Of a stretch of 20,157 nucleotides of DNA, positions 5,801 through 14,966 are shown piece after piece. Below the pieces are notes generated by a model. That model did not search any database. It saw only the letters and a list, made by a program, of their open reading frames with translations, and was not told the DNA's origin. This DNA is from a virus. The stretch spans positions 284-20,440 of the IMG/VR virus record IMGVR_UViG_3300030106_002469; one strand, given 5' to 3'. The translations under genes and the position numbers were made by a program. Numbering within the stretch: the stretch's first letter is position 1; every line of letters begins with the position of its first letter.

Positions 5801-5964
5801 TAATTTAAAAAGAAGTTTTGAGCTTCTACCTCGTCTTTTAATTCTTGTTGATATGTAGTATTTAATTTTACTATAATCCCATCTATATCTCTAGTTTGAG
5901 CCTCTGCAACTGTATAATCATACTCTTGTGCAGGTCTTGTTAATACTTGTACTATCTTAGCCAT
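5800..5964 (-). CDS. Small hypothetical phage protein, 54 residues
   Basis: A short frame encodes 54 residues starting MAKIVQVLTRPAQEYDYTVA and ending VEAQNFFLN. It starts inside the stop codon of the 736-residue gene (TAATG, one shared base) and its own stop again shares one base with the ATG of the 113-residue gene. Three consecutive genes are thus chained by identical TAATG junctions. The protein is acidic to neutral, with a probable helix over DIDGIIVKLNTTYQQELKDE. No function can be assigned. An in-frame start at such a junction, and no other gene in this stretch, make it a likely real gene. Confidence 0.7.
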   Translation of the reverse strand: MAKIVQVLTRPAQEYDYTVAEAQTRDIDGIIVKLNTTYQQELKDEVEAQNFFLN

Positions 5965-8174
5965 TATCGTCTACCATCTGGTTGTGTATCTAATCTAAAA
6001 GTTCCTAGTTTCCAACTTTGACTCGCAGCTGTATTTTCTATTTTTAATGCAATCGATCTTGCTCTTGCTCGCGTATCTACTTTTAAAGTAGAGGATGTTA
6101 TGTCAAAAGGACCTAGTGATGAGCTTGCAGCTGTTTCATTAGGGAAATTTCTTAATTGTAAAGTTACTCTTGTTGCTCCTGTCTGTGATATAAAGTCAGG
6201 TATAAATCTTCGTATTTTCATTAAAAATTCACCATCTCCTCTAAATGTTGCAATACCTGTTTGTTGACCTTGTGATGTTCTTTGTGCTGTGATGTCAAAA
6301 TCTCCGGATACTATATTCGCTGTTATAGCTGTGATTGTACCATTTTTATTTTGATCTGTCCCTGTTTCATGTTCGTAGTATGCTGTTCTACCCTCAGTAT
6401 TTCCAACCACATCAAAAGATGTATCTGTTGATGCATCGTATTCTAAAGCGTGTGGTTTAGTAAATACCGCTGAGTCTTGCCACATAGTTCTAGATAAACT
6501 ACCTACAGTCCATACTGGTCTTTGTGGTGATGAGTCAAAATAATTGTATGAAACCATTCTGTTTACCACAGAGGATGTAGACTCTGGATAAAACCACATG
6601 ACCTCACCAAATAAATTATTTAACCCTGCTGACACCATTTGGTTACCAGACTCAATATTTATATTGTCAAAAACAAAATCTTCTACCAAACATGGTAATG
6701 ATTCTAATTTACCAGCATATCTAAAGAAGCCATTTTCTGACATCCAGTATGCAGCACCATCTACTTCAACACATGCATTCTGTCCTACAAGTCCACAGTT
6801 AGTTCCAACTTGTGAAAAGGCAAATGTAAACGGTTGACCAACAAAACGTTGTGTAAATAAAGCTGTGTCGGTCCAAACATAAATTGCATCACGACCTCTA
6901 ATCGCTCCTCTGATCTGTGATCCATCGGCCAGTCTTTGTGTACCAGCTGTATTGGTTGCTGTTGGTGTGTAGCTATTAATATTTTCTTGGTCCGAGAACC
7001 TAATAAACATATCATCTTGTGTTGCTGGATTTCCAATAGTTGTCTCTGTTCCAAAAAATACTAAGTGACGATCCGGTGTTGATACGACCATATGTCTTGA
7101 TGCAGTTGGTGCTCCTGTTATAATCGTGCACCTTGTTTCTGTTGCGTTTGATAAACTAGAGTCCCATTCAAATACAGAGCTATCATGAATTAAACAAATT
7201 GCTTTGTCACCAAAATTATCTATTGACCACATACCGGGTTCTAATACTAAGTCACCTGATGCTGCTTCACCCCAAGCAACAAAGTCCGTGGTATTAGTTA
7301 CAGTTGCGCCATTACTGTGTGCAGCTCTTGTAGTTCCTCTAACAGCCCTTGTAATACCTGTCAATGTAGTGCCTCCTGTAACCCCCGTGTAAGATATTTC
7401 TTCGGTCCCTACTTTTATAAAATTAGTTCCTGTGCTAGGAAATTGTGTAGCATCAGCTAAAACAATAGATGTTCCAGACCCACCAGTACCAAATGCATCG
7501 TTTAATAATGCACCATTTAAAGTTGTAGTGACTGCATTTGAAGCTTCTCCACCCCAAGATCCTAAACCCCAACCAAAACCTTTTTCCTGAACAGCAGATC
7601 CAACAGGAAAATAATGTTGCACTCTAATACCACCAGATGTTGTTGCACCAGATCCTGATTCATTAGAAGGCATCGTAATTGTTAATGTTGATGTTGTAGG
7701 AACAGTTGTAACCATAAATTTTTTATTATCAAAATCAGAGGCGCTAAAATTAGAATTAGTTATTGCAGTAAAATTATCTAACAAAATAATATCTTGCGGA
7801 TTTATACCATGAGATCCACTAAAAGTTATTGTAACAGTTGGTGATCCATTAGTCGTGCTGAATGCACTTGTAAGTGTTGTTGTAGATTTAATAGGGTGTA
7901 TGTCATAAAATACACCACCAGAAAAAGCATATAAAATTCTATTAGTGCCAATAATAGCGTATCTTCTACCTAAACTATTAACAAAATGATGTAAACCACG
8001 TCCTGCTCCTGTCAATTCATTCTCATTGACGTTACCTAATTGATTCCATCCACCTATTTTTTCAGGTGTGCCATACCTAAATCTTACATTGTCACAATCT
8101 ACCCATTGACCCTCGGCTCCTGTGGGTGTGATTTGTTTGTTGATTCCTGGCTGAAAACCTATTTTTTGTAGCAT
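5964..8174 (-). CDS. Large tail protein, candidate tail hub/nozzle (P22 gp10-like)
   Basis: The largest complete gene, 736 residues. The N-terminus (MLQKIGFQPGINKQITPTGA, then QWVDCDNVRFRYGTPEKIGG) and the C-terminus (LGTFRLDTQPDGRR) match conserved ends I associate with a family of large marine phage structural proteins. Comparison with the P22 gp10-type tail hub is a fold-level guess. Residues about 94-185 look like a beta-rich Ser/Thr insertion. A GWGLGSWGG segment lies at 200-208. A separate module at 226-294 (IVLADATQFPSTG, EEISYTG, TLTGITRAVRGTTRAAHSNG) is a widespread exchangeable phage module. The middle region (320-560) has regularly spaced aromatic strands compatible with a beta-propeller. 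The start is 43 bases downstream of the 163-residue gene, with only a weak GTGGGCG as ribosome site. Confidence 0.82.
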   Translation of the reverse strand: MLQKIGFQPGINKQITPTGAEGQWVDCDNVRFRYGTPEKIGGWNQLGNVNENELTGAGRGLHHFVNSLGRRYAIIGTNRILYAFSGGVFYDIHPIKSTTTLTSAFSTTNGSPTVTITFSGSHGINPQDIILLDNFTAITNSNFSASDFDNKKFMVTTVPTTSTLTITMPSNESGSGATTSGGIRVQHYFPVGSAVQEKGFGWGLGSWGGEASNAVTTTLNGALLNDAFGTGGSGTSIVLADATQFPSTGTNFIKVGTEEISYTGVTGGTTLTGITRAVRGTTRAAHSNGATVTNTTDFVAWGEAASGDLVLEPGMWSIDNFGDKAICLIHDSSVFEWDSSLSNATETRCTIITGAPTASRHMVVSTPDRHLVFFGTETTIGNPATQDDMFIRFSDQENINSYTPTATNTAGTQRLADGSQIRGAIRGRDAIYVWTDTALFTQRFVGQPFTFAFSQVGTNCGLVGQNACVEVDGAAYWMSENGFFRYAGKLESLPCLVEDFVFDNINIESGNQMVSAGLNNLFGEVMWFYPESTSSVVNRMVSYNYFDSSPQRPVWTVGSLSRTMWQDSAVFTKPHALEYDASTDTSFDVVGNTEGRTAYYEHETGTDQNKNGTITAITANIVSGDFDITAQRTSQGQQTGIATFRGDGEFLMKIRRFIPDFISQTGATRVTLQLRNFPNETAASSSLGPFDITSSTLKVDTRARARSIALKIENTAASQSWKLGTFRLDTQPDGRR

Positions 8175-8182
8175 AATCGCCC

Positions 8183-8194
8183 ACTATATATAGT
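8183..8194. promoter_or_regulatory. 12-base AT palindrome in the gap before the 736-residue tail gene
   Basis: ACTATATATAGT is a perfect palindrome in the 43-base gap between the 163- and 736-residue genes. This is one of the few real gaps in the operon. Read on the minus strand it contains TATATA, which could serve as a -10 element, but no convincing -35 element lies at the right distance. It could equally be a chance feature of AT-rich DNA. Confidence 0.2.
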
Positions 8195-8217
8195 TTTAAT
8201 ATTTTTTGTAGTCTAAA

Positions 8218-8709
8218 TTATTGTTGAATCCAAACTAAATTATCAGAATCCCAAGCAAATGTATTTCTAGGGGAGTCCCAATCAAGTGCTTTCCATTCTA
8301 AATCGTTTTCATTCCAAAAAATATTATAGTTTACGTCTGCACCATTATCTTTGTATGTAGTTATTGTAGGATAAGGGACTGGAGCTTTCCAAGTCACACC
8401 ATCATCTTGTTTTATCCATGATGCGAAAGGTTGTCTTTCAATAAATTTATCTTCCGCAAAATCATATGTTCCACCTATCATTGCCATTCTCCCTCTAAAA
8501 GCATGACCTGCTGAGGTTTGTTTCCAAGTCCCACCTTGGAAGAAATTTTTACACCAATTTTCTCCGTCAATGTGCATGTCATTATCACCGAGAAGTCCAT
8601 CAGATGTTGGTGTTTTGTTACCAACTTTTATTACATTCATAACAGTCCATCTTTCTGTGCTTGAATCAAATGGATCGGGTCGTTTTTCTAATTTTGCAAA
8701 AGTAGCCAT
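8218..8709 (-). CDS. Trp-rich fibre-associated virion protein
   Basis: A 163-residue protein with 10 tryptophans (21, 52, 62, 98, 107, 132, 139, 144, 153, 160). The order of blocks is MATFAKLE, a VMNVIKVGNK strand, an ENWCKNFFQGGTWKQTS block (50-66), a TYDFAEDKFIERQPFASW block (81-98), a WKAPVPYPT block, and a C-terminal run of WD/WN/WIQQ strands. This order matches a family common in cyanophages and other marine phages near tail-fibre genes, whose role is unknown to me. The start has an AGGA seven bases upstream and lies two bases after the stop of the last oxygenase gene, so normal ribosome-site use resumes here. Because it immediately follows the halogenase cassette and is so Trp-rich, it is one candidate substrate, but that is speculation. 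Confidence 0.8.
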   Translation of the reverse strand: MATFAKLEKRPDPFDSSTERWTVMNVIKVGNKTPTSDGLLGDNDMHIDGENWCKNFFQGGTWKQTSAGHAFRGRMAMIGGTYDFAEDKFIERQPFASWIKQDDGVTWKAPVPYPTITTYKDNGADVNYNIFWNENDLEWKALDWDSPRNTFAWDSDNLVWIQQ

Positions 8710-8711
8710 AA

Positions 8712-9389
8712 CTATATCCTATATTTCTTATATTTTATTAAAGGCGTATTGTCTATAATTAATTCTTGTATAAAAAAGACTAAATTTAACCTTTCTTTAC
8801 TATCCTCAACCACCATATTATCAAAGGCATGCCAAATATTCCCTCCATATACTATTAAATTATTATAAACATTTTTTACCGTTTGAATTTTTATAAATTT
8901 ACTATTGTGGTTTTTATAAATTTTTTCATATATTTTTTTATTAAATATATTTTTTTTGTATAAATTTCTTTTTTGATTTACAGCATCATTATTTTTTATA
9001 GGCATTACTGGTTTATAAAAACTAGTCCCACTATCTAATCTAGATTTTTTATTTAAATAAACTAAACCTGCTAAAGCACAGTCATCTTTGTGAATCCAAC
9101 CTTTATTTCTTACGTCTAAAATATTTTTTGAATATGGTTTCATTTTATGAAAACAAACATGAGCCCCTCTCCACTGAATATCATGATGTCTAAAATCATA
9201 ATACAATGATAATACAGAAACTATAAATTTATCAAATATTTTTTTGTCTATTTCATGTAAACTTTTTGTTCTAATGTTTGGAAAGTTACCGGTTTTAGAT
9301 TTATAGTATTTTAAAGTATTTGCAAATTTAACTATTTCATCCGGATTATCAAAACAATCTGTAACTGTTGTAACAGGAAAATAAATCAT
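8712..9389 (-). CDS. DUF6445-like Fe(II)/2-oxoglutarate oxygenase family protein
   Basis: A 225-residue protein, last gene of the tailoring cassette. It has an HxD iron-binding pair in GWIHKDDCALAGLVYLN (H100, D102), a distal histidine in GGNIWHAFDN (H187) and an arginine in ERLNLVFFIQ (R200) that would bind the 2-oxoglutarate carboxylate. This order and the surrounding words fit DUF6445, a cupin-type family related to Fe(II)/2OG dioxygenases. Between the two halves is a lysine-rich insertion (132-165). The expected chemistry is oxidation, most simply hydroxylation, of an unknown substrate in the infected cell. The start lies in an ATGA overlap with the upstream oxygenase and no Shine-Dalgarno sequence is visible. 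The very Lys/Asn/Ile-rich composition matches the cassette and not the flanking virion genes. Confidence 0.8.
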   Translation of the reverse strand: MIYFPVTTVTDCFDNPDEIVKFANTLKYYKSKTGNFPNIRTKSLHEIDKKIFDKFIVSVLSLYYDFRHHDIQWRGAHVCFHKMKPYSKNILDVRNKGWIHKDDCALAGLVYLNKKSRLDSGTSFYKPVMPIKNNDAVNQKRNLYKKNIFNKKIYEKIYKNHNSKFIKIQTVKNVYNNLIVYGGNIWHAFDNMVVEDSKERLNLVFFIQELIIDNTPLIKYKKYRI

Positions 9390-9994
9390 TGTGATTTAAA
9401 TTCTTTCGGTAGTCCTAAAAAAGGTCTGGAGTCAAATAAATTATTAGAACCTTTTTTATTATAGTGTAAAAATACTTGTGAACATAAATTACCTTCAAAC
9501 TCTTCTCTCCAATGTTCTAACTCACATCCGGAGTAAACTAAAAGATCACCTTGTTCTAATAATATTTCTTTACCCGCTCTATTTTTACCACCTGTTGGAT
9601 CAAGATATATTGGCCAAATGTCTCCTCCTAAATTTAAGGTACCTGATATTTGACAACTTGGTCTATCGATATGTCTTTCTAATATATCACCCTTTTTATA
9701 TATTCTAAAATAAGTATAAGTTTCATCTAATTTTATTTTTATTTTATTTTCTATTTCCTCTTTAATAAATACAAGTAATGTTTCCATGGTTATATCTGAA
9801 TAATGAGAATAAGTATTAGGAACTTGATCATCGTTGTAAGTTCCAAAATACTCTGTATATGGTGAAAGATATCGTTTTTCAAACATTTTATCCGCGACTT
9901 TCTTTTTTAAAAAAGAATAGTTAAATAAAAAATTAGCAAATTTTTTATCAATAATATTTTTTATTATTTGATATTTATTTTTTTTAAAGCTCAT
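9386..9994 (-). CDS. Fe(II)/2-oxoglutarate oxygenase-like protein (atypical 2OG site)
   Basis: A 202-residue protein. The core reads YTYFRIYKKGDILERHIDRP (93-112), giving an HxD pair H108/D110. Then come a GTLNLGGDIWPIYLDPTGG strand pair, EQGDLLVYSGCELEHWREEF with distal histidine H161, and GNLCSQVFLHYN. This is the double-stranded beta-helix layout of prolyl-4-hydroxylase-like oxygenases, with all three iron ligands present. The usual arginine or lysine about ten residues after the distal histidine is not evident: that place has CSQVFLHY. The 2OG carboxylate may be held by another residue, or the co-substrate may differ. The N-terminal 40 residues are very Lys/Phe-rich. The start lies 11 bases inside the end of the halogenase gene, with only a weak AAGA upstream. 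The substrate is unknown. Confidence 0.8.
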   Translation of the reverse strand: MSFKKNKYQIIKNIIDKKFANFLFNYSFLKKKVADKMFEKRYLSPYTEYFGTYNDDQVPNTYSHYSDITMETLLVFIKEEIENKIKIKLDETYTYFRIYKKGDILERHIDRPSCQISGTLNLGGDIWPIYLDPTGGKNRAGKEILLEQGDLLVYSGCELEHWREEFEGNLCSQVFLHYNKKGSNNLFDSRPFLGLPKEFKSQ

Positions 9995-11396
9995 TTCTTA
10001 TATTAGTTAGATATTGTTTGTGTGTTATAATATTATTAGCTTGTATGTTAAAATCACTTATATAATTTTTAACATCATCATTTAATAATTCATATTGTTT
10101 TTTAATTTTTTGTTTGTTAATTAAATTTAAACCTTGCATAATGTGTATATAATTTTTGTCCCAAAATAATTGATATTTACAACCATTATTAAAATCTTCT
10201 TGTATTGGTAATCTGTTTTTAAATAAATCTAATTTATATTTTAATGTGTCAGGTATAACTTGTGTCTTCCAAAACTCTTCTTTTCTTTTTGTTATATAAT
10301 GTAAACAAATAAAATCTCTGATATTAAGCATAATTTTTTCTACTAAATTATTTACATGATTAATAATTTTGTCATCATAATTAATTAAATAATGAGATAA
10401 TAAATAAGATTGTTGGATTGAAGTCCCTATTGATGTCGCCTCTAAAGGTTCTACAAAATTTGCACTTAAACCCACAGCAAAACAATTTTTAATCCACACT
10501 TTATCTAAATACCCAGACTCAAAGTTAATCTGTTTTCTTACATCAATTTTGTGTTTTAAATATTTTTCTACTTCTTTTTTAGCTTGGTCTGAATTAATTA
10601 AATCACTATCAAATATATAGCCATTACCGTGTCTACCCCAAACAGGAATATTAAATAACCAACCAGATTTCATGGCTTTGGCAGTAGTGTAAATATTGTA
10701 ATTATTTGTATCTTTAGTTTGAAAAACTATAGCTGATTTAACTTTTAAATATTTATTAAGTTTTACCCATCTATGTTTAAATTTAGAAATTAATATTCTT
10801 CTAAAACCAGTGCAATCAATGTAAAAATCTGATTTATATTTAACTGTGCCTTTTATGTAATTAATTCCATTTTTATTAATTTTAACTTCTTTTATTTTAT
10901 CGTTTATAATTTTAACATTTCTTTCTTTACATTTTTTTATTAAATATTCATTTAATTTATATGTATCAAAATGAAACTGATTTGTTGGTCTTGGTTCATT
11001 AGCAACTACTTTATTTTTTAAAAATAAAGGAAATACAAAATCATTAGCTTTTTTATTGTTAGCTATCTTTTTTAAATAAAATATATTTTCTTGACCCAGT
11101 TTATTAATCCCACCATAAACACTGTGTAAAAAATTATTATCAGACCAGTCTTTAAACATTATACCAGATTTTAATGTGCAATTACATTCTCTGATTAATT
11201 CAAAATAATCTAAATCGCACCAACCCATAAAATCAATCCAATGTTCAGTGCTACCCTCTCCTACACCTATGATGCCTATTTCATCAGATTTTATAATTTG
11301 TATATTAATATGATTTCTAAATTTTTTTTCTAATATTAAAGCAGAAATTAATCCAGCAGTACCACCACCTACTATAGTTATATTTTTTACTTTCAT
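9984..11396 (-). CDS. Flavin-dependent halogenase (tryptophan halogenase family)
   Basis: A 470-residue FADH2-dependent halogenase-family protein; such enzymes make HOCl or HOBr from halide and O2 and pass it to an active-site lysine to halogenate an aromatic substrate. Visible elements are the FAD dinucleotide fold ITIVGGGTAGLISALIL (G10, G12, G15); GVGEGSTEHWIDFMGW (45-59), the family's GE-ST/ATP region; K76 in CTLKSGIMF, aligning with the catalytic lysine of PrnA/RebH; CTGFRR (195-200); GWLFNIPVWGRHGNGY (245-260), a variant of the WxWxIP signature; and GLSANFVEPLEATSI (309-323), where E319 matches the conserved glutamate and T321-S322 the halide-binding turn. It is shorter than typical bacterial tryptophan halogenases (about 500-540). 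A marine viral member, VirX1 from a cyanophage, is reported to iodinate diverse substrates. A flavin reductase partner is not in the window and may come from the host. ATGA overlap start; no ribosome site seen. Confidence 0.9.
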   Translation of the reverse strand: MKVKNITIVGGGTAGLISALILEKKFRNHINIQIIKSDEIGIIGVGEGSTEHWIDFMGWCDLDYFELIRECNCTLKSGIMFKDWSDNNFLHSVYGGINKLGQENIFYLKKIANNKKANDFVFPLFLKNKVVANEPRPTNQFHFDTYKLNEYLIKKCKERNVKIINDKIKEVKINKNGINYIKGTVKYKSDFYIDCTGFRRILISKFKHRWVKLNKYLKVKSAIVFQTKDTNNYNIYTTAKAMKSGWLFNIPVWGRHGNGYIFDSDLINSDQAKKEVEKYLKHKIDVRKQINFESGYLDKVWIKNCFAVGLSANFVEPLEATSIGTSIQQSYLLSHYLINYDDKIINHVNNLVEKIMLNIRDFICLHYITKRKEEFWKTQVIPDTLKYKLDLFKNRLPIQEDFNNGCKYQLFWDKNYIHIMQGLNLINKQKIKKQYELLNDDVKNYISDFNIQANNIITHKQYLTNIRNEL

Positions 11397-12046
11397 ATAT
11401 TTTTTGGATAAGCCCTACAATTCCAGTGAATAAATCTAAAAGGTTCTACTCCCTCATCAACTGTATATAAATGAGGCATGTAAGATGGAAAAAACATCAT
11501 TCTACCAGATTTTACAACGTATTCAATTTGCGGAATCCCATAAACTAATTCTTTCGTTGGTTTTATAGGTAAAGAATTCATATTAGCTCCAGGCTTTGGG
11601 TCTTGAAAAACAGGCTTAGAAGTTTTATCACTTGCCTTTAAAAAATAAAAACCAGACATGTGTCCATTCCAATGTGTGTGTAATGTGTGGTGTCCTCCTC
11701 CAGATTTAGCAAATTCTTGAACCCAAATTTCATCTAAATTAACTTTATAATTAGTTAAATCAAAACCCATCTCATCTAATAAGTTATGACAAGTTGCAAC
11801 AATATAGTTGTTAAACTTTTCTAATTTAGGATCATTAGCTATTAAACCAGAGTGATAAACTAAACCGTGATCATTTTTTGTATTATAAAATTTATTCTTA
11901 TCTTTTAATTTTTGTTTAAAATTTTTTTTAGCTTGATTAATATGAGGATCACATATCTTATTTATTTCTTTTAATTTATCTGGAAAATCACATATCCAAA
12001 GTGGTGTTGAAAATATATCTTCTCTGTTTAAAATTTTAGGAAACAT
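11393..12046 (-). CDS. Putative Fe(II)/2-oxoglutarate oxygenase, 2OG-FeII_Oxy_5 (TIGR02466)-like
   Basis: A 217-residue protein. The block HHTLHTHWNGHMSGFYFLKA (119-138) corresponds to the PHTHPNxxxSGVYYL signature of the TIGR02466/2OG-FeII_Oxy_5 family. It is followed by a strand with PVFQDPKPGAN, KSGRMMFFPSYMPHLYTV (179-196) with distal histidine H192, and EPFRFIHWN (201-209) with R204 as probable 2OG-binding arginine. The first iron motif reads H123-T-H125, so the usual aspartate of HxD is replaced by histidine if the alignment is right. Function in this family is mostly uncharacterised; hydroxylation of a protein or small molecule is expected. Its start shares one base with the stop of the upstream oxygenase, and its stop overlaps the halogenase start by four bases, which argues for coupled production with the halogenase. 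Confidence 0.82.
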   Translation of the reverse strand: MFPKILNREDIFSTPLWICDFPDKLKEINKICDPHINQAKKNFKQKLKDKNKFYNTKNDHGLVYHSGLIANDPKLEKFNNYIVATCHNLLDEMGFDLTNYKVNLDEIWVQEFAKSGGGHHTLHTHWNGHMSGFYFLKASDKTSKPVFQDPKPGANMNSLPIKPTKELVYGIPQIEYVVKSGRMMFFPSYMPHLYTVDEGVEPFRFIHWNCRAYPKNI

Positions 12047-12642
12047 TATCTAAAGTCTTTACCACCGAACCAAATGACTAAACTATATCTTGTTCCTTTT
12101 AAAACAGGTTTTACTCTATGCCACATAAAAGAAGGGAAAAAACAAATAGAACCTTTATTACCAAATTCTTCATTTGTTACTATGTCTGGTGTAGCATCTG
12201 GCGAACTTTCTATGCAAAATTCTAAGTCTCCACCGGTATAGTCTTTTCTGTCTGATAAGCAAAGTGTCATTGATAATTTCCTATTTCTATCCCTATCATA
12301 CTTTTTTAAATCTTCTTTGTCAAATCTATCTGTGTGCCAACCATAAAATTCATTAGAATTGTATATTGTAAACTGACAAGGTTCTGCATTATCTATTTCA
12401 TAATTCCAACCTGCATTTTTATTAGCGAGTTTTAAATAAGGTTGTATTTCTCTATAAATCCAAGTTTCATCAAGCCATATAATATTTGAGTTTCTTACTG
12501 AGCTTAATGTGGGGTTATCCGTTTTTAATGATTTTGTTCGACCTACTCTTTTTCTTTTTGATTTTGCAAATTTAATTATATCATCACAAAATTTTAAAGA
12601 TAAAGATTTATTCCAATACCAGAAAGGATGTTGCACACGCAT
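12046..12642 (-). CDS. PKHD/PiuC-like Fe(II)/2-oxoglutarate oxygenase
   Basis: A 198-residue protein and the first gene of the cassette. It shows the full 2OG oxygenase set: H103 and D105 in NEFYGWHTDRF, the RKLSMTLCLSDRKDYTGGDLEF strands (121-142), distal histidine H175 in CFFPSFMWHRVKPV, and R185 in GTRYSLVIWFGG. The order and wording resemble PiuC-type PKHD hydroxylases and phage-encoded relatives in cyanophages. The reaction would be O2- and 2OG-dependent oxidation of an unknown substrate, possibly a virion protein or the halogenated product made by the downstream enzyme. The gene starts 9 bases after the glycine-rich adhesin gene. The DNA before the ATG is TAATAATTTTTT, with no Shine-Dalgarno sequence. 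All catalytic residues are present, so activity is expected. Confidence 0.87.
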   Translation of the reverse strand: MRVQHPFWYWNKSLSLKFCDDIIKFAKSKRKRVGRTKSLKTDNPTLSSVRNSNIIWLDETWIYREIQPYLKLANKNAGWNYEIDNAEPCQFTIYNSNEFYGWHTDRFDKEDLKKYDRDRNRKLSMTLCLSDRKDYTGGDLEFCIESSPDATPDIVTNEEFGNKGSICFFPSFMWHRVKPVLKGTRYSLVIWFGGKDFR

Positions 12643-12651
12643 AAAAAATTA

Positions 12652-13584
12652 TTAAAATGACGCGCTCCCACTTACTGTAAATGTTAAAAGTGTACAACAA
12701 CCAGTGGTTGTTATAGTGTTGTCTCCAGGTGTAATAGACATACCTGCTGGTTTGCAGGCTGTTGGAAATCTTAAAATAACTACTCCAGTAGCTCCTGCTG
12801 GAGCTCCGTTTCCTCCTCCACCACCGGCTTGATTAGCAGTAGGAAGATCTGAACCATTTCCTCCATCTCCTCCGTCACCTCTACCCCCTGTGCCGGCACC
12901 GCCTGATGGGTGTGCACTTGCTCCACCACCACAGCCATAATTTACACTTGAACCTGTTATTGAAATTTGTTTTCCGTTTCCACCATTTGCAGATGTAGCC
13001 GCTGCACACGCTCCACCTCCGCCTCCTCCGACAAAACATGGAGATTGAGATGGTGCACCATTATTACCAAAACTTCCTCCGCTACCGCCTGCTTGAACAG
13101 GAAAGGCATGATTACAACCAGCACCGCCACCTGAACCACAAGAAGATGGTGCACCCGGATTTCTACGACCGCCACCACCGCCGCCTCCTCCCATTGGGAT
13201 AGCGACTGGTTTACAATTAAACATAGAACTAGTTCCACCAGTGCTTCCTGTGCCATCAAAACTTCCTGCTTTTGCACCACCTGCAGCTATTGTTACAGCT
13301 ATTGGTCCACAATCTGTATTTAAAGTTATTGCTGAACATGGAGTTGAAAAAGATGTTCTCACGCCTCCAGCGCCTCCACCTCCCGGTCCGTGTGCGTGCG
13401 AGCCGCCACCACCGCCTCCGGCTATTAGATAATCGAAAGCAATGCAAATTGGTCCACCAGCACCACCTGAACCAAAACCTAATATTTGATAACCAAAAGA
13501 TTTTCTTTTTGATGATTGTGAATTATTTGATGATTTACCAGTTCCACCAAGTTTTAATAAATCGTTTAATTTATCATCTCTCAT
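12652..13584 (-). CDS. Glycine-rich, cysteine-rich tail adhesin-like protein
   Basis: A 310-residue protein dominated by polyglycine runs (55-61, 68-74, 132-139, 186-191, 254-260) between short beta strands. The words DYLIAGGGGGG at the start of the glycine domain and TGVVILRFP near its end (266-274) are the typical boundaries of phage glycine-rich domains found in tail tips and receptor-binding proteins. Such domains can form polyglycine-II lattices, as in the Salmonella phage S16 adhesin. The first 35 residues are polar (KLNDLLKLGGTGKSSNNSQ) and could attach to the preceding fibre. There are 12 cysteines, an unusually high number for an intracellularly assembled fibre. The gene lies 11 bases after the fibre gene, with a weak TAGG as ribosome site, and directly before the oxygenase/halogenase cassette. 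A host-recognition role is inferred. Confidence 0.8.
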   Translation of the reverse strand: MRDDKLNDLLKLGGTGKSSNNSQSSKRKSFGYQILGFGSGGAGGPICIAFDYLIAGGGGGGSHAHGPGGGGAGGVRTSFSTPCSAITLNTDCGPIAVTIAAGGAKAGSFDGTGSTGGTSSMFNCKPVAIPMGGGGGGGGRRNPGAPSSCGSGGGAGCNHAFPVQAGGSGGSFGNNGAPSQSPCFVGGGGGGACAAATSANGGNGKQISITGSSVNYGCGGGASAHPSGGAGTGGRGDGGDGGNGSDLPTANQAGGGGGNGAPAGATGVVILRFPTACKPAGMSITPGDNTITTTGCCTLLTFTVSGSASF

Positions 13585-13595
13585 TTTTAAACCTA

Positions 13596-14966
13596 TTACG
13601 CATCGTTAGCAGCGTCTGTAGTAAAGAATAATTTAATTCCAAGTAATCTTGCATCAGCGTCTAGGGAGTCGTCTGATACATCTCTAGTTACTTGAAAGAA
13701 AACATATTCATCTGTACTAGGTGAACCTGCGATAGTAACTGCCCCACTTTCTGCTGTAACATCTAAATCATTTGATGTGCCGCTATGTGCTTTTGCTGTA
13801 GGTGCAACCGCTGTTCCAAAAGCAGTATTTAAATCACCACTATCTGCTAAAGCAACACCTGCTAAATCCCAAGACACAGTTCCTGTATCTGTTGAAGTGG
13901 CTGTGAAGAATGCTTGAAAAGTTACTGTGCCCTCATTCCAAGATTTAGGGAAAGCAACTGCAAATTGTGCACTCTCATCAGAGCTTTTGTCAAAATCTAA
14001 AACTTTTAATTCTGGTCCGTTTCCTAATTCTACTTGTGCAGCCTCTGCACCATTTGTAGTATTTGGATACATAGCCACTGCTGGAATCCATATAGTTTCC
14101 TTTCCAGCAACTTTTACTGCAGCTCCACCAGCTTGAACAACACCATTTCCATTAGGTGCAAGATTAATATTTCCATCTGCTCCATCTGTTATTGTAATTG
14201 TTCCAGAGTTAGTTCCTGAATTAGTGTCTAATATTAAATTGTGAGCACCACTAGATGTAATTGTTGCATCTCCTGAACCTGTACCAACTACGGTTTCTCC
14301 AGTTCCTTTTGGAGCTATGTTAATGTTTACGTTAGAGTCACTGCTCCCTGTTGCTGAAATAGTTGGAGCGCTTCCGTTAGCTGCGTTTGCTATCGTTAAC
14401 TCGTTAGTTGCTGAACTTGTAGCTGTTAATTTAAATAACTCATTACCATTAGTATCTAAAATAGATGTACCAATTTTTGGTGAAGTTAAAGTTTTATTTG
14501 TTAAAGTCTGTGTTCCAGTAAGTGTTACGTCCCCTGCACCAAAACCTAGGTCTATGATGTCTGGATTCACACCATCGTTTGCAGAAGCAAATACAATTTT
14601 AGTTGTTGCAGGTGCTACCGCTACACTATCACCCGATCCTGAAACATATTTAAATGTTACATTTTGTGATCCACTTGTAGAATTTTTTAAGAAGTAAAAA
14701 GTTTGAACATCAATTGGTATGGTAACGTTTCTTCCAGCACTTAATGATCCTGTAAATTCAATCATTCTGTGTGCAAGAGTTGCTCCTGTTCCACCATCAG
14801 TTACTGAAAGATCTGTATCTCCTGAATCAGAGACAGCCTGTTGTGTAAAACCACCAGATATCTGTTCTACTATCTGTAAATTGGTATTAGTCTTCGTCCC
14901 CCATGTACCGGCATTTTCACCAGTTGCCTGAAGTTCTATACCCAAAGGGCTGAATGTTGATGCCAT
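13596..14966 (-). CDS. Tail fibre protein
   Basis: A 456-residue fibre. The N-terminus (LGIELQATGENAGTWGTKTN, 8-27) is a conserved start of many phage fibre-type proteins and probably the virion attachment part. GTQTLTNKTLTSPKI (151-165) is the classic short tail-fibre repeat word. A beta-helix-like shaft follows, with two related units NINIAPKGTGETVVG (213-228) and NINLAPNGNGVVQAG (266-280). From about 290 a globular C-terminal domain begins (TIWIPAVAMYPNTTNGAE), ending in LGIKLFFTTDAANDA, and is a likely receptor-binding or trimerisation part. A strong AGGAG site lies upstream of the ATG. The gene sits between the repeat protein and the glycine-rich adhesin, so the three probably build the distal tail. 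No cysteines and no enzymatic motif are seen. Confidence 0.87.
   Translation of the reverse strand: MASTFSPLGIELQATGENAGTWGTKTNTNLQIVEQISGGFTQQAVSDSGDTDLSVTDGGTGATLAHRMIEFTGSLSAGRNVTIPIDVQTFYFLKNSTSGSQNVTFKYVSGSGDSVAVAPATTKIVFASANDGVNPDIIDLGFGAGDVTLTGTQTLTNKTLTSPKIGTSILDTNGNELFKLTATSSATNELTIANAANGSAPTISATGSSDSNVNINIAPKGTGETVVGTGSGDATITSSGAHNLILDTNSGTNSGTITITDGADGNINLAPNGNGVVQAGGAAVKVAGKETIWIPAVAMYPNTTNGAEAAQVELGNGPELKVLDFDKSSDESAQFAVAFPKSWNEGTVTFQAFFTATSTDTGTVSWDLAGVALADSGDLNTAFGTAVAPTAKAHSGTSNDLDVTAESGAVTIAGSPSTDEYVFFQVTRDVSDDSLDADARLLGIKLFFTTDAANDA

Follow-up and report, generated by a model that had tools for sequence, protein, structure and literature searches.

Why would a phage of SAR11 bacteria encode, among its tail proteins, a halogenase-family flavoprotein together with four proteins resembling Fe(II)/2-oxoglutarate (2OG) oxygenases? 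The question is posed by a window of 20157 nucleotides, the whole stretch analyzed here, from the 20440-base virus record IMGVR_UViG_3300030106_002469. A cassette of five such genes (positions 8712–12642, minus strand) forms part of the tail module in a SAR11 pelagiphage of HTVC023P type, whose virion structural protein STR736 is 46–47% identical to those of the HTVC023P-type pelagiphages 023Pt_psg01, HTVC027P, and HTVC023P. We propose, with a probability of roughly 0.55, that the enzymes modify the phage's own tail adhesin or a Trp-rich partner protein. This is the most economical reading given that the enzyme array depends on the type of fibre, is exchanged together with the adhesin gene, and occurs as the same set in unrelated phages.

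Gene content and exchange of the block

All clear genes of the window lie on the minus strand, in the reading order FIB273, FIB456, GLY310, OX4, OX3, HAL, OX2, OX1, DUF163, STR736. A first-pass annotation, made from the sequence, had described five contiguous same-strand genes with overlapping ends, and the coordinates agree: OX4 (12046–12642), OX3 (11393–12046), HAL (9984–11396), OX2 (9386–9994), and OX1 (8712–9389) overlap in turn by 1, 4, 11, and 4 nt. The gaps to GLY310 (12652–13584), which encodes the probable tail-tip adhesin, and to DUF163 (8218–8709), which encodes a small Trp-rich protein, are equally tight (9 and 2 nt, respectively), so that a single transcript is likely. Chance ORFs can be excluded for all five genes because each has homologues with invariant catalytic positions. 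The GC content of the cassette is 23–30% and that of neighboring genes 36–47%.

Comparison of the window with a related locus, L002, reveals 97–100% identity from about 8140 to 13580 (except for two to three 250-base bins at 95.6–96.4%) and 69–87% identity outside. The exchanged block (8140–13600) has its edges at the start of STR736 (5964–8174; PHROG 3287, E=5e-93) and at the junction of GLY310 with FIB456 (13596–14966; PHROG 31104), a tail/fibre gene; FIB456 and STR736 thus flank the slot. The unit that moves is therefore composed of seven genes, of which GLY310 is the first, DUF163 the last, and the four oxygenase genes and HAL lie between. A second pair of loci, L051 and L097, shares proteins of 99% (GLY), 98% (HAL), and 100% (OX2) identity, in contrast to 80% for STR and 85% for FIB, and the exchange pattern is repeated for FIB456 and STR736 in L006/L007, although STR736 has a broken frame in L007. 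In partial Mantel tests of 28–66 de-duplicated loci, distances track the glycine-rich protein and not STR736 for HAL (r=0.30, p=0.002), s177 (r=0.34, p=0.007), DUF163 (r=0.21–0.27, p=5e-4), and OX2 (r=0.19–0.20, p=0.03–0.04), the last even though OX2 often adjoins STR736. Given that the enzyme set moves between phages with the adhesin, the enzymes probably modify the adhesin chemically. Of the dedicated modification system that the first-pass annotation envisaged, the tie to the fibre module holds up well, in that synteny recurs, the block is exchanged, the enzymes co-vary with the adhesin, and their catalytic residues are intact; its five-gene boundaries do not, the exchanged unit being seven genes.

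A scan with the flanking gene STR736 gave 80 loci, in which we define the slot as the interval from FIB456 to STR736. These slots usually contain a glycine-rich gene, adjoined in most by the Trp-rich gene DUF163, and 2–10 2OG genes, with OX4- and OX2-type genes nearly universal; a halogenase is present in 8/80 and is thus an optional member. Among 63 de-duplicated complete slots, a set that also takes in loci retrieved by way of the halogenase, three or more 2OG genes are present in 47/51 slots with a glycine-rich protein, in 6/6 with a tail-collar fibre, and in 0/6 others (Fisher p=3e-6). A looser first reading, that oxygenases are absent from slots lacking the glycine-rich protein, was refuted by sensitive annotation, as some of these have two. 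A scan with a second halogenase as query returned 374 relatives. We retained 80, the majority of which, on dozens of contigs, show the order GLY-DUF163-s177-2OG-HAL-(2OG)-OX2. The five genes are accordingly not a fixed set and are one of many combinations; their order OX4-OX3-HAL-OX2-OX1 does recur in L003/L006/L007 and L051/L097, with further 2OG genes inserted.

Cultured phages also carry this kind of combination in full, a correction to the first-pass annotation. The SAR11 myovirus HTVC008M encodes a Gly_rich_2 protein with 33% glycine and a DUF163 homologue followed by an inverted array of OX2 (49% identity), OX4 (40%), three more 2OG genes, and a weak one, near which lie a 2OG gene and then a halogenase (34% identity). 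In cyanophage S-H38, a protein of 36% glycine is accompanied by a halogenase, a weak homologue of DUF163 (E=7e-6), and four 2OG genes, of which two are annotated as endonuclease V. Three inverted 2OG genes accompany the collar fibre of HTVC027P.

Several loci differ in what fills the slot. In L101, L114, and L119 it is occupied by long proteins (with a SPRY domain in L101, laminin-G and SPRY domains in L114), which are a different type of adhesin, and oxygenases are absent. In L023, L025–L028, and L033, inverted cassettes lie beside tail-collar fibres with a methyltransferase-like gene, another Trp-rich protein (c19), and an extra conserved gene that has no Pfam match and is sulfotransferase-like by eye. 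Over 219 loci, mean GC is 28% for 2OG and halogenase genes and 37% for structural genes, with 2OG genes lower in 219/219; this may reflect a recent common source or a relaxed composition of the cassettes. A genome scan for a cellular origin gave a single relative, which lies on a phage contig from a single-cell genome; this is a weak negative, as the scan relies on exact matches to short peptide patterns.

Catalytic residues and predicted folds of the enzymes

The composition first read from the sequence, one halogenase-family gene and four 2OG-oxygenase-like genes, is borne out by Pfam and PHROG matches, by invariant motifs, and by a fold model of OX2. HAL belongs to the flavin-dependent Trp_halogenase family (PF04820, E=1e-83; PHROG 2928, E=1e-98), with PyrH, PrnA, RebH, and VirX1 as relatives (the VirX1 PDB chain matched at E=3e-37). 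The GxGxxG dinucleotide-binding motif is present, with G10–G15 conserved among 72 phage homologues, and the catalytic residues K76, the counterpart of K79 in PrnA and VirX1, and E319, the glutamate of FxEPLE, align with those of PyrH and others and are found in 72/72. The WxWxIP motif, in contrast, reads GWLFNIP: GW at 245–246 is invariant (72/72), and position 248, that of the second tryptophan, is F in HAL and divided among the homologues (F in 36, W in 36). For this reason we name HAL a halogenase-family enzyme and not a proven halogenase; its chemistry may be halogenation or hydroxylation. NCBIfam matches of HAL to LodB and QhpG, flavoproteins that modify protein-bound tryptophan, are weak and far under the cut-off. 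The Trp4 substrate motif of free-tryptophan halogenases (groups A/B; PMC8269204) is absent from the alignment region of HAL, which together with the phenylalanine in WxWxIP suggests that its substrate is probably something other than free tryptophan. Tryptophan inside peptides and proteins is a target of known halogenases (PMC10286304, PMC12518702).

The marine viral halogenase is also not the single case that the first-pass annotation named, given that 70 phage records match. A 2OG gene lies within two genes of the halogenase in 39/47 halogenase clusters, compared with 43/198 large background ORFs. Three larger phage contigs (L010, L014, L022) carry three to five halogenases amid many 2OG genes, near several glycine-rich proteins and a fibre gene. 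In L279 (734–2053), a phage contig from a single-cell genome, one ORF starts as the N-terminal part of a 2OG-like protein and continues as a halogenase, of which it has the C-terminal two thirds but neither the FAD motif nor the catalytic lysine; the fusion may have arisen by natural deletion or through an error of assembly.

OX4, a PKHD-like Fe(II)/2OG oxygenase by profile (PF13640, E=8e-16, over the cut-off), has the HxD...H...R motif with H103 in 87/87, D105 in 83/87, H175 in 82/87, and R185 in 81/87 relatives, and enzymes of its type occur in most slots. OX1 is a DUF6445 protein (PF20043, E=1.5e-11) in which the same motif (H100, D102, H187, R200) is found in 32/32 relatives. OX3 is a putative 2OG oxygenase (PF13759, E=4e-11, over the cut-off; TIGR02466-like at 57 bits against a cut-off of 62.5). 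Its H123, H125, and H192 are found in 46/46 relatives and R204 in 33/46; in proteins of this type the HxD of 2OG oxygenases is thus replaced by an invariant HxH that lacks the acid ligand, which could indicate a different metal site or chemistry.

OX2 has no Pfam match over the cut-off and belongs to PHROG 2954, which bears a "ferrochelatase" label. Its AlphaFold model (pLDDT 96) is predicted by Foldseek to have the double-stranded β-helix fold of 2OG oxygenases and is most similar to the prolyl hydroxylase of the Pseudomonas putida P4H:EF-Tu complex (4iw3, E=6e-9), followed by DdPHD and PHD2, and the HxD...H triad is present, with H108, D110, H161, and R163 in 87/87 relatives. A ferrochelatase identity was rejected because no ferrochelatase is among the 50 best PDB matches of this confident model, the named ones being 2OG-type oxygenases. 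The label on PHROG 2954 and 3531 therefore appears, on the basis of the model, to be a mis-annotation. It is consequential given that PMC9599517 names the OX2-type protein ferrochelatase with a role in iron and heme, and that published iron/heme readings of pelagiphages depend on it. Two S-H38 (L128) genes annotated as DNA endonuclease V (10389–11021 and 13431–13922) likewise match 2OG-oxygenase profiles (E=1e-36 and 8e-50). PADLOC yielded no specific match to a defense or counter-defense family, a generic 2OG model alone matching OX4, and a defense system was rejected on this basis.

What the enzymes may act on

GLY310 is a Gly_rich_2 protein (PF21722, E=3e-11; 28% glycine) whose AlphaFold model (pLDDT 82) has weak Foldseek matches to the Bxb1 tail tip, the fibre of cyanophage Pam3, and the glycine-rich domain of ALK; the best of them, to the Bxb1 tail tip (9d93), has E=1e-3, a probability of 0.99, and a TM score of 0.32. 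On this model it is a probable tail-tip adhesin and the proposed substrate, with DUF163 (PHROG 7759) a candidate co-substrate or fibre partner. From what is observed, namely which genes are present and in what order, their catalytic residues and predicted folds, and the exchange of the block and its co-variation with the adhesin, we infer substrate, chemistry, timing, and purpose as follows. The cassette would comprise maturation enzymes of the tail-adhesin module, expressed late and transcribed with the tail genes, as the operon suggests. With Fe(II), 2OG, and O2, the oxygenases, which include at least one similar to protein hydroxylases, would hydroxylate side chains on the glycine-rich adhesin, the Trp-rich partner, or both. 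The halogenase-family enzyme, with FADH2 from a host flavin reductase and halide from seawater, would halogenate or hydroxylate an aromatic side chain of one or both. Because the enzyme set of each phage differs and is matched to its adhesin, the purpose is likely an altered chemistry of the tail tip and hence of receptor specificity or stability. We speculate, tentatively and with more doubt than conviction, that matched, interchangeable hydroxylases and halogenases write side-chain chemistry on the adhesin of each phage lineage as a combinatorial "oxidation and halogenation code" that helps to set host range; this would be a way for virions to modify themselves that has no earlier description.

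Residue composition offers a lead toward the modified site. Tryptophan of the glycine-rich protein is not supported as a general halogenase target, its content being no higher in halogenase-positive phages. Histidine is enriched in the glycine-rich proteins of such phages in the loci tested first (de-duplicated, p=5e-4; in another cut of these loci, 2e-6), but in new loci only at p=0.23, or 0.033 when length-matched; we treat this as a lead only, because several residues and proteins were tested.

We are cautious in assigning the substrate, as several observations weigh against modification of the adhesin. Tryptophan is absent from GLY310 of the window, and 8/47 halogenase clusters lie outside such a module. 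P-SSM2 has a halogenase and one neighboring 2OG gene, with no glycine-rich protein among the ORFs checked. 2OG genes also accompany collar-type fibres, which rules out the glycine-rich protein as the sole substrate. The slot counts and Mantel tests carry phylogenetic relatedness. Finally, co-transfer with the adhesin would also be expected of enzymes that modify the host surface. Such enzymes, acting on lipopolysaccharide, polysaccharide, or an outer-membrane receptor in the course of infection, so as to prevent superinfection or release progeny, would be linked to the adhesin through a shared receptor and travel with it, which makes them a real rival, compatible with both the co-variation and the block exchange. 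Fibres and glycosyltransferases are mixed in the host-recognition clusters of pelagimyophages, where they have been read as surface modification (PMC7029224), and a glycosyltransferase lies just downstream in HTVC023P and HTVC027P. We nevertheless consider a host-surface target unlikely given the likeness of OX2 to protein hydroxylases, the requirement of a halogenase for an aromatic target, from which typical surface sugars differ, and the lack of an obvious signal or membrane segment in the five proteins on inspection by eye.

The first-pass annotation had left the target as either virion proteins or a host or environmental metabolite, and we favor the former by inference. Auxiliary metabolism, in which the enzymes would change such a metabolite or 2OG/iron status, is in line with published readings of 2OG/NtcA signaling in cyanophages (PMC3037559), iron and heme (PMC9599517), and metabolite halogenation (PMC10452541). 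A metabolic role, however, predicts neither the dependence on fibre type nor the co-exchange with the adhesin, up to 10 different 2OG enzymes in a slot are beyond any simple pathway, and the heme reading depends on a "ferrochelatase" with a predicted 2OG-oxygenase fold. Nor is 2OG/NtcA logic transferable to SAR11 phages, because NtcA is a cyanobacterial regulator; we find a metabolic role improbable. The variable slot content and the AT-richness of 2OG and HAL genes relative to structural genes (219/219 loci for 2OG) would also suit accessory genes that merely gather in a recombination-prone fibre slot with no functional link to the fibre. Invariant catalytic residues, the near-universality of OX2 and OX4, the scarcity or absence of oxygenases where lectin-type fibres occupy the slot, and the sharing of the gene set by unrelated phages make such hitchhiking, in our judgment, the least probable explanation.

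Relation to known systems

Among the known phages of the bacteria that are most abundant in the ocean, the carriers are the most abundant. If modification of the adhesin is correct, receptor recognition in the ocean's dominant phage–host pair would use chemistry invisible to sequence alone, many 2OG and halogenase genes now counted as "auxiliary metabolic" in marine phages would be reassigned to virion maturation, and one would gain natural halogenases and hydroxylases of proteins, together with the partners on which they act. The OX2 model would in addition correct the "ferrochelatase" annotation behind the iron/heme interpretation. The gp38-type adhesins of S16 and PP01 are glycine-rich terminal tail proteins, beside which we know of no described modifying enzymes; GLY310 is like them in its glycine-rich composition.

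VirX1 of cyanophage Syn10 (6qgm) is, like HAL, a phage-encoded PF04820 protein; it was characterized as a single enzyme with no natural substrate assigned (PMC8407142), and HAL differs in keeping GW with F for the second tryptophan of WxWxIP. The tryptophan halogenases MibH, SrpI, and ChlH of ribosomally made peptides (PMC10286304 and PMC12518702) belong to the same superfamily and act on a ribosomally made polypeptide, but their substrates are leader-guided or small peptides and not a phage adhesin, and the likeness to HAL is at superfamily level. Protein prolyl hydroxylases (P. putida PPHD on EF-Tu, 4iw3; PHD2) share the predicted fold of OX2 (E=6e-9) at only 11–19% identity, and OX2 is phage-borne.

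Marine phages are already known to carry single halogenases and 2OG genes. In open-access literature we found nothing relevant on fibre hydroxylation by phage oxygenases and no account that links an oxygenase/halogenase array to a tail adhesin. The 2OG/"ferrochelatase" auxiliary metabolic gene sets of HTVC023P-type pelagiphages (PMC9599517) are the same genes in the same phage group, and their co-location was noted there. That study reads OX2 as an iron/heme ferrochelatase and mentions no link to a halogenase or glycine-rich protein, whereas here OX2 is predicted to fold like a hydroxylase and the array varies with the adhesin. The host recognition cluster of pelagimyophages (PMC7029224) is likewise a hypervariable island of fibres and modifying enzymes, and the array of HTVC008M similarly adjoins its fibre and neck genes; that cluster, however, was described in terms of glycosyltransferases and surface alteration and not as an adhesin-tied oxygenase/halogenase array.

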